The position numbers and the translations under genes were made by a program. Positions 18,908 to 28,161 of a stretch of DNA of 34,398 nt are shown piece after piece. The notes beneath the pieces were generated by a model. The model made no database searches. It saw only the letters and a list, made by a program, of their open reading frames with translations, and had not been told where the DNA came from. Each line of letters starts with the position of its first letter. The stretch's first letter is position 1. Source of the DNA: Candidatus Pelagibacterales bacterium (GTDB lineage Bacteria; Pseudomonadota; Alphaproteobacteria; Pelagibacterales; AG-422-B15); NCBI GenBank assembly GCA_029242795.1, contig JAQWTH010000011.1, positions 1 to 34,398 on the forward strand. Reading direction: 5' to 3'.

Positions 18908-19420
18908 TTAAACTGTTTTAATAATTTTATTTTCAAATAAATCAAATAGATAGAATGCTCCTAGCCCATACATTACTGTAGAAAGTAAAGTATTTTGGAA
19001 AAATGGAAGAGCCATTATGTAACAACTGATAAGCCCATTTAAATCTTGAGAATACATACCGCTTCCAAGCCATACAGCAAAATTGGTCACAATAAAGAAA
19101 ATAAATGCTCCAGAAAAAAGTGCCACAAAACCTCTTAAATAGGTAAATTTAGAAACCAGTAAAAAACCTATTGAAACATTTAGTATAATTGCAAAATAAA
19201 TGATCGAAATACTTGAATGAAAACCTAATACTAAGTCACTCAAAAACATTGCCACTAGAGGAATTATAAAAGCCAATAACTTTTTATCTAGCATTGCTCC
19301 AGCAAAAACAGCCATACCTAATAGTGGAGTAAAGTTTGGAGGATGAGGTATTAACCTACTAAATGCCAATATTGCAATTAGAATAAAAATTGATGATGTT
19401 CTTAAATCAAGAAATTTCAT
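18908..19420 (-). CDS. DUF6580-like integral membrane protein, candidate vitamin B12 transporter component
   Basis: 170 residues, almost entirely hydrophobic with about five to six membrane segments. The N-terminal RLIPHPPNFTPLLGMAVFAG (about 22-41), the LSDLVLGFH (about 60-68), the TNFAVWLGSGMYSQ near 111-124 and the CYIMALPFF with one cysteine near 132 match the DUF6580 family as I remember it. The size and compact polytopic architecture resemble the substrate-binding S components of ECF transporters, but no ECF ATPase or T component is nearby. The gene is 71 bases downstream of the riboswitch-controlled TonB receptor on the same strand, which suggests it moves cobalamin or a precursor across the inner membrane. 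Function is inferred from context only. Confidence 0.65.
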   Translation of the reverse strand: MKFLDLRTSSIFILIAILAFSRLIPHPPNFTPLLGMAVFAGAMLDKKLLAFIIPLVAMFLSDLVLGFHSSISIIYFAIILNVSIGFLLVSKFTYLRGFVALFSGAFIFFIVTNFAVWLGSGMYSQDLNGLISCYIMALPFFQNTLLSTVMYGLGAFYLFDLFENKIIKTV

Positions 19421-19491
19421 ATTTTTGACAATATATAATTGTTTTCCAAATTACAATACTTATGACAGGGAGTATCCTGCAAATCCTTCAA

Positions 19492-21708
19492 TTAGAACTC
19501 ATAATTTAAGTTTACATAAGCTGTTCTTTTAGCTAGAGGATAAACCCCACTTAATCCGAAATGATCATCATCATGAAATGTACTTGCAACAGCAAAATCA
19601 TAATATTCCTCATTAAGCAAATTATTGATACCTATTTGTAAAGACATGGGCCCTCTTAGGTGTCTTAGTTTTATATTAGCTAAATAGTAGTCTGGTATTT
19701 TTGGCTCAACATTTTCTGGATCATTTGATACATACTTTTCATCAACATAATTTAAATCAAAACTTATAGTATTAAATGAGTTTACTTTTCTCTCAAACTT
19801 TAAGTTAAATGTATTTGGCGAAACAAGTGGAACACTCTTACCAGATAAATTGTAAACTGTTCCACCTCCCATTATATTTTGCCAAGTATTTGAATTACTG
19901 CAATAAGTAGTATTTGCAAAGTCACACGATCCAGTACTACCTCCTCCCGGTGATAAAGTTCCAGATGTAAATTCAGCTTGTACATAAGAATATGAACCTA
20001 ATAACATTGTGCTACTATTGATTTCGTAATCAAAATCTAAGTTTAATCCCTCTCTACTAATAGGATCAAGGTTTGTATTTTTGCTCTGATCGTATTGAAT
20101 TTCATTCTGAGTTTCCATTGAGTATATACTTGCAGAAATATTAAATTTTGCGTCATTTAGTCTTATACCAAACTCAACTTCATCAGACTCTTGATCAAGC
20201 AATGCAAACGAGCCGCTAGTAGTTGATTTAATACGCTCATCAATATTTGGCGTTCTGAATGAATCAGCATATTTGGCAAAAACTTTAACATTTTCTGTGA
20301 TAATCTTCTCAAGACCAATATTAATTACTGTATTTGTAGTTGAACTAGAAAGAGAGTCATGGTCTGTCGCATTCCAACTATTTTTAAATCCATCAATGTT
20401 TCGATCTACAGTATCTTCACCAGAAAAATTAGTTTTTTCATTTCTTAGACCAAATGATAGTACACTTGCTTGATTTGGAAGATTTAGGCTTGATTGAATA
20501 TAAAAAGCTCTACTATCTTGAGTGGCTTTATAATATTGGCCTACTGACTCATCTTCTTTTCTATGTCGGTTTGAAGAATAATCTGTATCACTATAATCAA
20601 ATCCATATTTTATTAAGGCAGTATTATCCCCTATGAAAATAGAGTCATCTAAAATCAATGAAAGTTGAGTATTATCAAGATCTGTATCAATAAAACGATC
20701 ACCATCATTAGGGGTGCTTTTAGTGTTTCCATTGGCTGCATAAAAAGCTTTTTGTTCTTTAGATCTATTCGAAATTAGAAAATTTATTTGTTTTGACTCT
20801 GTAATATTAGTCTCAAAACCAGCTGCGAAAGAAGTATTTTCTTCATTAGCGTAATCATCTCTTTGCTCAGTATTACAACTATTACCATTTCGTGCAAAAC
20901 CACCACCGATATTTTTAGCTGTTCTGCTTGTAGATAAAAGATTACATAAATGATAATTATATACGCCCCCAATAATTCTAGTTCCAGGCATTAATTGCTT
21001 TTTAGAATTATGACTAAGATCAAGATAAGAATTTATTGATTCAGTATTATTTTGAATTTTAAAAAAAATATCTTCCCGCTCATAATCTGCATTATCTCTA
21101 TATGTATCAGAATCTTTCAAAAGTCCTGAAATCAACATATTCGTATTTTTATTAATACTCATTGAACTAGAAAAATCTAGTTGATAAGAACTGTGTGTTG
21201 CTAAGTTTAAAGACGACTCATTTTGAATATCTAAACTATCTTTCATTACTATATTGATTGCTCCTCCAACAGCTCCTGAACCATAAAGTGTAGCTGCTGA
21301 ATTACCTCTTATAATTTCTATCCTTTTAATTGATTTGACCGGAATATTAGAAAAATTAATACCCCCCATGTCTAAATCATTAAGTCGTATCCCATTTATT
21401 AACATTAAAAAATTTGATTTAGAGGCTTCACCAAAACCTCTCATATCAATTGTAGAATTTGAACCACTCACATCAGAATACAAGTTCCTAACTTGAATAC
21501 CTGAATAAGATTTTATTATCTCGGAAATATTTTTTTCAGATTGGCTGATTAAATCTTCTGAAGATATGATGGTAATATTTGATCCTGCTAACCCTGTAGA
21601 TAGCCTAGAATAATCACTATCTTTTGGAGTAATCCAGATTTCATTTGAATTAGCAGCTTGTACAATTGAACTTATGAATAAAAAAAATATTAGGTATCGT
21701 ATGAACAT
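19492..21708 (-). CDS. TonB-dependent outer-membrane receptor, BtuB-like
   Basis: 738 residues from ATG at 21708, which has GAGGAG eight bases upstream and opens directly into a signal peptide (FIRYLIFFLFISSIVQAANS). The frame extends eleven codons further, but these translate the ribosome site itself. The plug domain spans about residues 40-155: GSNITIISSEDL, NISEIIKSYSGIQV, IDMRGFGEASKSNFLMLING and IEIIRGNSAATLYGSGAVGGAINIV. The rest is a 22-strand barrel ending in aromatic YVNLNYEF, the usual C-terminal sorting signal. A cobalamin riboswitch precedes it, so the most likely cargo is vitamin B12 or a related corrinoid; without the riboswitch the receptor class alone would not reveal the ligand. 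Confidence 0.9.
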   Translation of the reverse strand: MFIRYLIFFLFISSIVQAANSNEIWITPKDSDYSRLSTGLAGSNITIISSEDLISQSEKNISEIIKSYSGIQVRNLYSDVSGSNSTIDMRGFGEASKSNFLMLINGIRLNDLDMGGINFSNIPVKSIKRIEIIRGNSAATLYGSGAVGGAINIVMKDSLDIQNESSLNLATHSSYQLDFSSSMSINKNTNMLISGLLKDSDTYRDNADYEREDIFFKIQNNTESINSYLDLSHNSKKQLMPGTRIIGGVYNYHLCNLLSTSRTAKNIGGGFARNGNSCNTEQRDDYANEENTSFAAGFETNITESKQINFLISNRSKEQKAFYAANGNTKSTPNDGDRFIDTDLDNTQLSLILDDSIFIGDNTALIKYGFDYSDTDYSSNRHRKEDESVGQYYKATQDSRAFYIQSSLNLPNQASVLSFGLRNEKTNFSGEDTVDRNIDGFKNSWNATDHDSLSSSTTNTVINIGLEKIITENVKVFAKYADSFRTPNIDERIKSTTSGSFALLDQESDEVEFGIRLNDAKFNISASIYSMETQNEIQYDQSKNTNLDPISREGLNLDFDYEINSSTMLLGSYSYVQAEFTSGTLSPGGGSTGSCDFANTTYCSNSNTWQNIMGGGTVYNLSGKSVPLVSPNTFNLKFERKVNSFNTISFDLNYVDEKYVSNDPENVEPKIPDYYLANIKLRHLRGPMSLQIGINNLLNEEYYDFAVASTFHDDDHFGLSGVYPLAKRTAYVNLNYEF

Positions 21709-21714
21709 AATTTC

Positions 21715-21838
21715 TCCTCGGTTTTCACCTTTTATGCGCAACGAATATGTGTGAAATTCACAAAAATACGCAGCGGTTAACTTTTTAAAGTCACCACTAC
21801 TTTATTAAGTCCAAATGATTTTCCCGATCAATTGAGGA
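21715..21838 (-). promoter_or_regulatory. Candidate expression platform of the cobalamin riboswitch
   Basis: Just after the B12 box the leader contains UCCUC (21838-21834), which is complementary to the GAGGA of the receptor's ribosome binding site (21719-21715). Pairing would hide the ribosome site. The five-base match is short and could be chance, and alternative pairings in the 95 bases between are possible. Complementarity is seen; the mechanism is inferred. Confidence 0.3.
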
Positions 21839-21848
21839 TGACACTTCC

Positions 21849-22001
21849 ATTGGCAGGTCTCCTGACTTACAAATCAATACTTAAACACGCCTTCCCAAGA
21901 ATTCTCAGTGGCCTAAAATGTTTAAGCTCCTTGTTTACAGTTGCGGGAACAGTTACGGATTTAAACCGTATTCCCTATTAATCACTTTTCAGTGAACCAA
22001 T
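21849..22001 (-). ncRNA. Cobalamin (AdoCbl-type) riboswitch
   Basis: Reading the minus strand, the classic elements occur in order: P1 5' arm ATTGG (22001-21997), AATCCGT and CCGCAACTGTAA (21946-21935), GCCACTGAGAA (21912-21902), GGGAAGGC (21896-21889), the B12 box AGTCAGGAGACCTGCC (21867-21852) and the P1 3' arm CCAAT (21853-21849). Order and spacing match the Cob-I consensus closely. It lies in the leader of the TonB receptor gene, about 140 bases before its start, so B12 should repress receptor synthesis. No intrinsic terminator with a U-tract is visible downstream, which favours translational control. Confidence 0.95.
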
Positions 22002-22044
22002 ATTGTTATTGTTATTTAAATTGAATAAAATTACAACAGGAATA

Positions 22045-27535: not shown

Positions 27536-27733
27536 ATGCCTGATATTCCTAAGAAAATTAAAAGTCCTTGCGTCAAAATATGCAAATACGATGATGCTTT
27601 TATGAATGGAATGGTTTGCATAGGATGTTTCAGAGAGCAGTATGAAATTACTAATTGGCTTCGCATGACTGAAAAAGAGCGAGATCTGGTATATATTGAT
27701 ATTTTAAATAGAAAAAGGAAATACAGAAAATGA
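27536..27733 (+). CDS. DUF1289 family small cysteine-rich protein
   Basis: 65 residues. It contains the family pattern SPCVKICKYD (cysteines at 12 and 16) and MVCIGCFREQYEITNWLRMT (cysteines near 28 and 31), followed by E-K-x-R-x-x-V. The four cysteines probably bind a metal, likely zinc or an Fe-S cluster. DUF1289 proteins are widespread in proteobacteria and have no agreed function. The last four bases overlap the start of the DUF4396 gene (ATGA), indicating translational coupling. Confidence 0.88.
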   Translation: MPDIPKKIKSPCVKICKYDDAFMNGMVCIGCFREQYEITNWLRMTEKERDLVYIDILNRKRKYRK

Positions 27734-28161
27734 TTAAGGATATTTCGTGGACATGTAAAAGCACTTGGAAACGTAGCTCTTATAATACAATGTGGTGCTT
27801 AATTGGCTGTAGTATTGGTGACTTTGGCACAATTCTTTTTTTTCAATTTTCATCATTTGATGTTGCAACTGTTATCATTATGTCTCTTGCAATAATAAAC
27901 GGACTAATCACAAGTATTCTTTTGGAGACCGCTATACTTACCAGGCAAATGCAATTTATAGAGGCGTTTAAAACTGCAATTGGCATGAGTTTAATTTCTA
28001 TGCTCATGATGGAAATTTCAATGAATTCTCTGGATTGGATTATAATGGGTGGAGCTAAGCTCAATTTATTCATCATTCCATTCATGCTGTTTGTAGGCTT
28101 TATTACTCCACTTCCCTATAACTACTGGCGCCTAAAGAAATATGGGAAGGATTGTCATTAA
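27730..28161 (+). CDS. DUF4396 family membrane protein
   Basis: 143 residues with about four hydrophobic segments. The pattern WKRSSYNTMWCLIGCSIGDF near 13-32, with Cys-x3-Cys followed by Gly-Asp, and the C-terminal PLPYNYWRLKKYGKDCH match the DUF4396 family, in which the paired cysteines or adjacent histidine and acidic residues are conserved. One more cysteine and a histidine end the protein, so metal binding is plausible. Function unknown. It overlaps DUF1289 by four bases and is followed after three bases by the hydrolase gene. Confidence 0.75.
   Translation: MIKDISWTCKSTWKRSSYNTMWCLIGCSIGDFGTILFFQFSSFDVATVIIMSLAIINGLITSILLETAILTRQMQFIEAFKTAIGMSLISMLMMEISMNSLDWIIMGGAKLNLFIIPFMLFVGFITPLPYNYWRLKKYGKDCH

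Follow-up and report, generated by a model that had tools for sequence, protein, structure and literature searches.

We describe a locus in which a cobalamin riboswitch precedes genes for a TonB-dependent receptor and for a member of the DUF6580 family (PF20221), small membrane proteins that are probably inner-membrane importers of vitamin B12 in bacteria without the usual one. The locus lies on the minus strand of a 34,398-nucleotide (nt) stretch from a Candidatus Pelagibacterales bacterium (GenBank assembly GCA_029242795.1, contig JAQWTH010000011.1), which we call the window and whose positions serve as coordinates; the assembly containing it, G000, comprises 1.19 Mb and is 92.8% complete. 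We judge it likely that DUF6580 is a solitary corrinoid importer with the fold of an energy-coupling factor (ECF) S-component, partnered by a TonB receptor and subject to feedback from B12. By prediction, about one in two B12-auxotrophic bacteria does not have the sole inner-membrane importer characterized in bacteria, and most of these have no known importer (PMC6072759). A B12-riboswitch-linked family found in many phyla would fill part of this gap, give a DUF a function, make B12 dependence readable from the genomes of abundant uncultured marine bacteria, and possibly supply a second solitary S-component system for studying the movement of a large ligand without an ATPase.

The locus in the window

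In minus-strand order the locus consists of the following features.

21835..22016, minus strand: cobalamin riboswitch aptamer RF00174 (cmscan 121.8 bits, E 2.6e-30, model 1-189/189)
21709..21834, minus strand: leader from aptamer to receptor start (expression platform), with a strong hairpin and gaggag before ATG 21708
19492..21708, minus strand: TonB-dependent receptor, probable corrinoid receptor (PF07715 Plug and PF00593 barrel)
18908..19420, minus strand: membrane protein with six predicted helices, family DUF6580 (PF20221, 155.1 bits), the proposed importer of corrinoid through the inner membrane

A first-pass annotation of the window had described this combination of riboswitch, TonB receptor and 170-residue DUF6580 protein on one strand, with 71 bases between the two genes, and all of it was confirmed; it had ended the unit at 22001, but the aptamer extends just beyond, to 22016. 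The full-length aptamer exceeds the RF00174 gathering cut-off of 31.5 bits and covers all 189 model positions. The leader hairpin is strong and a similar one is found in some relatives, yet no terminator site in the leader passed a consensus scan, and terminator-type control by the riboswitch is no more than a possibility. The longest open reading frame of the receptor runs from TTG 21741 to 19492 on the minus strand, although the ATG at 21708 is the likelier start, given the Shine-Dalgarno-like GAGGAG before it. PF20221 (cut-off 27 bits) matches residues 7-166 of the DUF6580 protein with 155.1 bits. A promoter within the 71-nt gap, earlier entertained as a weak alternative for the DUF6580 gene, is not favored: a scan of the gap found no promoter-like site, and the corresponding gap in relatives is 18-24 nt or is replaced by a 1-nt gene overlap, which fits a single transcription unit.

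The receptor had also been called BtuB-like, a label that its sequence bears out only weakly: it scores 82.7 bits against the TonB-B12/BtuB model TIGR01779, far under the equivalog cut-off of 599.7, and slightly more (90.7 bits) against the heme-receptor model TIGR01785. TonB-B12 is the best model for the receptors of relatives L146 and L147, at 189 and 269 bits, still below cut-off. We call it a B12 or corrinoid receptor because of its position under the riboswitch, which is repeated in those relatives whose contigs span the spot, and not from its own sequence. The 'heme transporter' reported for AEGEAN-169 (PMC10308909) might include the window receptor.

DUF6580 and B12 riboswitches within the order

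Our sample of the order comprised 117 genomes, 53 from the family of the window (f1) and 64 from a sister family (f2), and DUF6580 was found in 55 of them (46 in f1, 9 in f2). One relative carries a tmRNA of alphaproteobacterial type, and these genomes probably belong to HIMB59/AEGEAN-169. An RF00174 riboswitch is present in 44 of the 53 f1 genomes, exactly one per genome; 43 carry both riboswitch and DUF6580, six carry neither, and the four discordant genomes have contigs that are short or truncated at the locus. All but one of the double carriers (42 of 43) have the two on one contig and one strand, 1959-2450 bp apart from riboswitch to DUF6580.

The f2 genomes provide a second, independent association of DUF6580 with a B12 riboswitch. 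Riboswitches of the AdoCbl-II class, scoring 72-102 bits and located upstream of a TonB receptor, exceed the cut-off in 7 of the 9 f2 genomes with DUF6580 versus 0 of the 55 without it (Fisher p 6e-8), and DUF6580 lies downstream on the same contig in 6 of these 7, the two being on separate contig pieces in G113. RF00174 by itself looked weak in f2, whose loci carry the AdoCbl-II class instead. Proteins with a B12-binding domain are likewise over cut-off in 7 of 9 f2 genomes with DUF6580 versus 3 of 55 without (p 6e-6); those examined from the DUF6580-positive genomes are radical S-adenosylmethionine (radical-SAM) enzymes encoded beside DUF6580. No PduO adenosyltransferase was found in the f2 genomes tested, other adenosyltransferase families not being searched. 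Because these genomes are without PduO and their B12 proteins include radical-SAM enzymes, f2 (loci L034, L035, L036, L038, L039, L041, L044) may use non-adenosyl B12. Locus L037 (G109:C1:98115-98570) is a second DUF6580 copy in its genome, without a TonB receptor and divergent from a B12-binding radical-SAM gene.

Corrinoid need without the usual importer

BtuC is a permease of the FecCD family. A BtuC-type (FecCD) permease was found in none of the 117 order genomes (best match 31 bits), and none above 200 bits in 40 of 50 wider DUF6580 genomes, BtuF and BtuD not being searched separately in either set; the lack of BtuFCD first noted for the window alone is thereby extended, as regards the BtuC-type permease, to the whole assembly, the order and these wider genomes. 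The sole match in G000 is a ZnuB-type ABC-3 permease (224 bits) that adjoins a zinc-type ATPase gene, and reading the FecCD matches of the order as BtuC was accordingly rejected. The DUF6580 protein of the window has no FecCD match itself. Neither EcfT/CbiQ nor CbiC, an enzyme of corrin synthesis, was detected in any of 14 order genomes tested (G000 and 13 relatives).

The order is nonetheless still in need of corrinoid. B12-binding proteins occur in all 53 f1 genomes, and G000 encodes a methylmalonyl-CoA mutase (1200 bits), the GTPase MeaB and a PduO adenosyltransferase; no MetH-sized B12-binding protein was seen in G000. The gene of a second mutase, resembling ethylmalonyl-CoA mutase, adjoins that of crotonyl-CoA carboxylase/reductase, a combination known from the ethylmalonyl-CoA pathway. 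Loci L142 (G000:C26) and L143 (G000:C15) hold this apparent B12-dependent pathway.

DUF6580 loci across phyla

Species genomes were scanned by pattern and tblastn, and the best 80 loci were kept from more than 591 pattern matches. They derive from Alphaproteobacteria, Gammaproteobacteria, Bacteroidota, Ignavibacteria, Planctomycetota, Verrucomicrobiota, Acidobacteriota, Leptospirales, Omnitrophota, candidate phyla and others; in Pseudomonadota overall DUF6580 is rare (6 of 398 genomes, 4 above cut-off). Counts for the wider loci use the 78 outside f1. A B12 riboswitch over cut-off is present in 41 of these (upstream of DUF6580 and on its strand in 35, on the divergent side in 3, at another place in 3), where chance would place about 0.3 riboswitches in the 0.81 Mb concerned, an expectation based on 62 over-cut-off riboswitches in 173 Mb (50 of the wider genomes). 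In seven loci the riboswitch stands directly before DUF6580, whose start is at most 600 bp away. TonB receptors are present in 34 of the 78.

Several neighbors also have links to B12. A cobalamin adenosyltransferase (PduO) gene adjoins DUF6580 in L060 (Kangiella) and L105, and a DUF71 gene does so in six loci (L057, L076, L085, L101, L113, L131); DUF71-B12 genes are predicted to act in B12 salvage and are linked to cobamide and cobinamide (PMC3541065). DUF4465, a B12-binding domain (PMC13398666), is among the families encoded nearby. In Candidatus Levybacteria (L105:5329-7150) the order is AdoCbl-II riboswitch, DUF6580, cobalamin adenosyltransferase, and no FecCD permease was found in this 1.1-Mb genome. 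At L119:5727-6625 DUF6580 lies between two cobalamin riboswitches of equal direction, one before it and one after. In the Sphingomonas-type loci L067, L099 and L120 DUF6580 is divergent from a riboswitch-controlled gene and the two do not form one operon; in L067 and L120 that gene is an open reading frame the size of a TonB receptor.

Predicted fold and conserved residues

DUF6580 is predicted to have the six-helix fold of ECF S-components. The AlphaFold2 model of the window protein, built with 81 sequences, has six helices, a predicted local distance difference test (pLDDT) score of 96.3 and a predicted template modeling (TM) score of 0.90. Its first 12 Foldseek matches in the PDB consist entirely of ECF S-components (FolT, ThiT, RibU) and their relative CbiM, at probabilities of 0.77-1.00 and with TM reaching 0.66; the remainder of the 50 listed have probabilities under 0.6 and include just one S-component. 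For a second member, L057 (pLDDT 95.4), only S-components exceed a probability of 0.5, with TM up to 0.69. No relative was found among PDB sequences with the single protein, or with the 81-member profile at E <= 10.

Both termini are predicted to be inside because positive charges lie in loop 4 and at the C-terminus. In this orientation conservation is 2.85 bits in the outer half versus 2.02 in the inner half (81 members, permutation p <1e-4), and the conserved residues cluster at the predicted periplasmic face. R22, P25, H26, N113, G129 and P139 are invariant (81/81) and C133 is present in 70 of 81. S-components bind their ligand at loops 1, 3 and 5; H26 is located in loop 1 and C133 at loop 5, where helix 6 starts. 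Either may serve as a cobalt ligand. The helix-1 AXXXA motif, needed for docking of S-components to EcfT (PMC11109136), occurs in only 14 of the 81 members.

Proposed role and alternatives

The computation shows the riboswitch, the co-localization, the predicted fold, the B12 enzymes and, in the genomes tested, a lack of BtuC-type permease, of EcfT and of CbiC; co-transcription, direction, substrate and solitary mode are inferred. The locus would be an uptake operon of two genes that B12 represses. Under corrinoid shortage the riboswitch would permit expression of the receptor and DUF6580; the receptor would take corrinoid through the outer membrane, and DUF6580 would bind it at the periplasmic face and pass it through the inner membrane. 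As proposed for BtuM, DUF6580 most likely does so on its own, because G000 and its 13 tested relatives are without EcfT and helix 1 generally is without AXXXA. A PduO-type enzyme would then turn the imported corrinoid into adenosylcobalamin for use by methylmalonyl-CoA mutase and the ethylmalonyl-CoA-mutase-like enzyme. The first-pass annotation had already suggested DUF6580 as the inner-membrane step for cobalamin or a precursor, and three in-silico checks now support this predicted function: enrichment beside cobalamin riboswitches, TonB receptors and B12 genes recurs across phyla, BtuC-type permeases are missing as described, and S-components are what the predicted structure matches.

Some observations weigh against an importer of this kind. 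A FecCD permease (230-316 bits) that could be BtuC or a siderophore permease is present in 10 of the 50 wider genomes, and single absences in the others are weak evidence because many of these genomes are drafts. Neither riboswitch nor TonB receptor lies near DUF6580 in 35 of the 78 wider loci, and divergent members may differ even from these, since the 78 scored highest among more than 591 pattern matches. The loop-3 Cys80 that is invariant in BtuM is absent from DUF6580, where loop 3 reads G66-F67-H68. Foldseek E-values are weak (0.03-1.6), and MreD and sensor domains, including those of sensor kinases, have the S-component fold too (PMC11109136), so that the fold alone is no proof of transport.

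These last two points, together with the PduO genes that adjoin DUF6580 in L060 and L105, would suit a protein with an S-component fold that is not itself the importer but acts as a B12 receptor in the membrane, as a chaperone, as a partner in adenosylation, or as a subunit that depends on a motor still to be identified. We regard this as distinctly improbable: kinase and motor genes do not stand beside DUF6580 in the loci examined, DUF6580 in L105 is directly between riboswitch and adenosyltransferase, and the order has no detected BtuC-type permease yet needs corrinoid. Import of a precursor or a part of a corrinoid (cobinamide, another cobamide, alpha-ribazole) in place of intact cobalamin is less easily dismissed, given the DUF71-B12 genes beside DUF6580 in six loci, and is unlikely on present evidence; a TonB receptor as partner implies that the substrate is large, and the f2 genomes tested are without PduO, which is normally needed for corrinoid remodeling, genes for lower-ligand assembly not being searched. 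Within the corrinoids, these data cannot tell cobalamin from cobinamide or another cobamide as the substrate.

Cobalt transporters are often under B12 riboswitches, and CbiM is among the fold matches, which together could suggest a CbtA- or CbiM-like cobalt transporter under B12 control. This is very improbable, as no CbiQ is present in the 14 order genomes, DUF6580 is paired with TonB receptors and DUF71, and cobalt import would be useless for B12 because the same 14 genomes are without CbiC. Still harder to credit is a DUF6580 gene that has nothing to do with its neighbor, a B12-importing receptor: the 71-nt gap in the window would permit this, but it is already contradicted by the short gaps or overlap in relatives, by the recurrence of the association with two riboswitch classes and different partners, and by the seven loci with a riboswitch directly before DUF6580.

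Elsewhere in the window, at 27730-28161, a gene for a DUF4396 protein (119.9 bits; function not known) lies upstream of genes for an alpha/beta hydrolase and an MscS-like channel.

Comparison with known systems

The window protein is a clear member of Pfam PF20221, an entry that gives no function. We found no mention of DUF6580/PF20221, or of a new B12 transporter family, in the literature searched, preprints and most subscription journals being outside its reach, and a survey of the S-component fold mentions no DUF in its main text (PMC11109136). We lean towards regarding DUF6580 as a hitherto unnamed family that spans phyla and consists of solitary corrinoid importers with the S-component fold, not related to BtuM by sequence. 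In abundant marine bacteria and in other lineages, candidate-phyla bacteria among them, it would take the place of BtuCDF, and it may bind corrinoid via the invariant loop-1 histidine.

BtuCDF, which has an unrelated fold, performs the step proposed here for DUF6580: it moves corrinoid over the inner membrane once a TonB receptor has let it in through the outer one. ECF S-components (FolT, ThiT, RibU, and CbrT for B12, PMC5997447) share with DUF6580 the predicted fold and a vitamin-type substrate; unlike them, DUF6580 largely does not have AXXXA, is without an ECF module in the genomes tested, and is found mainly in Gram-negative-type phyla. The closest parallel in mode of action would be BtuM, the solitary S-component-like B12 transporter of Thiobacillus denitrificans, whose structure has been solved (PMC6072759). 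A profile search of PDB sequences detects no sequence relation between the two, and where BtuM has Cys80 in loop 3, the common cysteine of DUF6580 is Cys133 at loop 5 and the start of helix 6. Shared by the two are small size, a six-helix S-component fold (predicted for DUF6580) with termini predicted inside, a link to TonB receptors, no ECF module, and a place in genomes without a BtuC-type permease.

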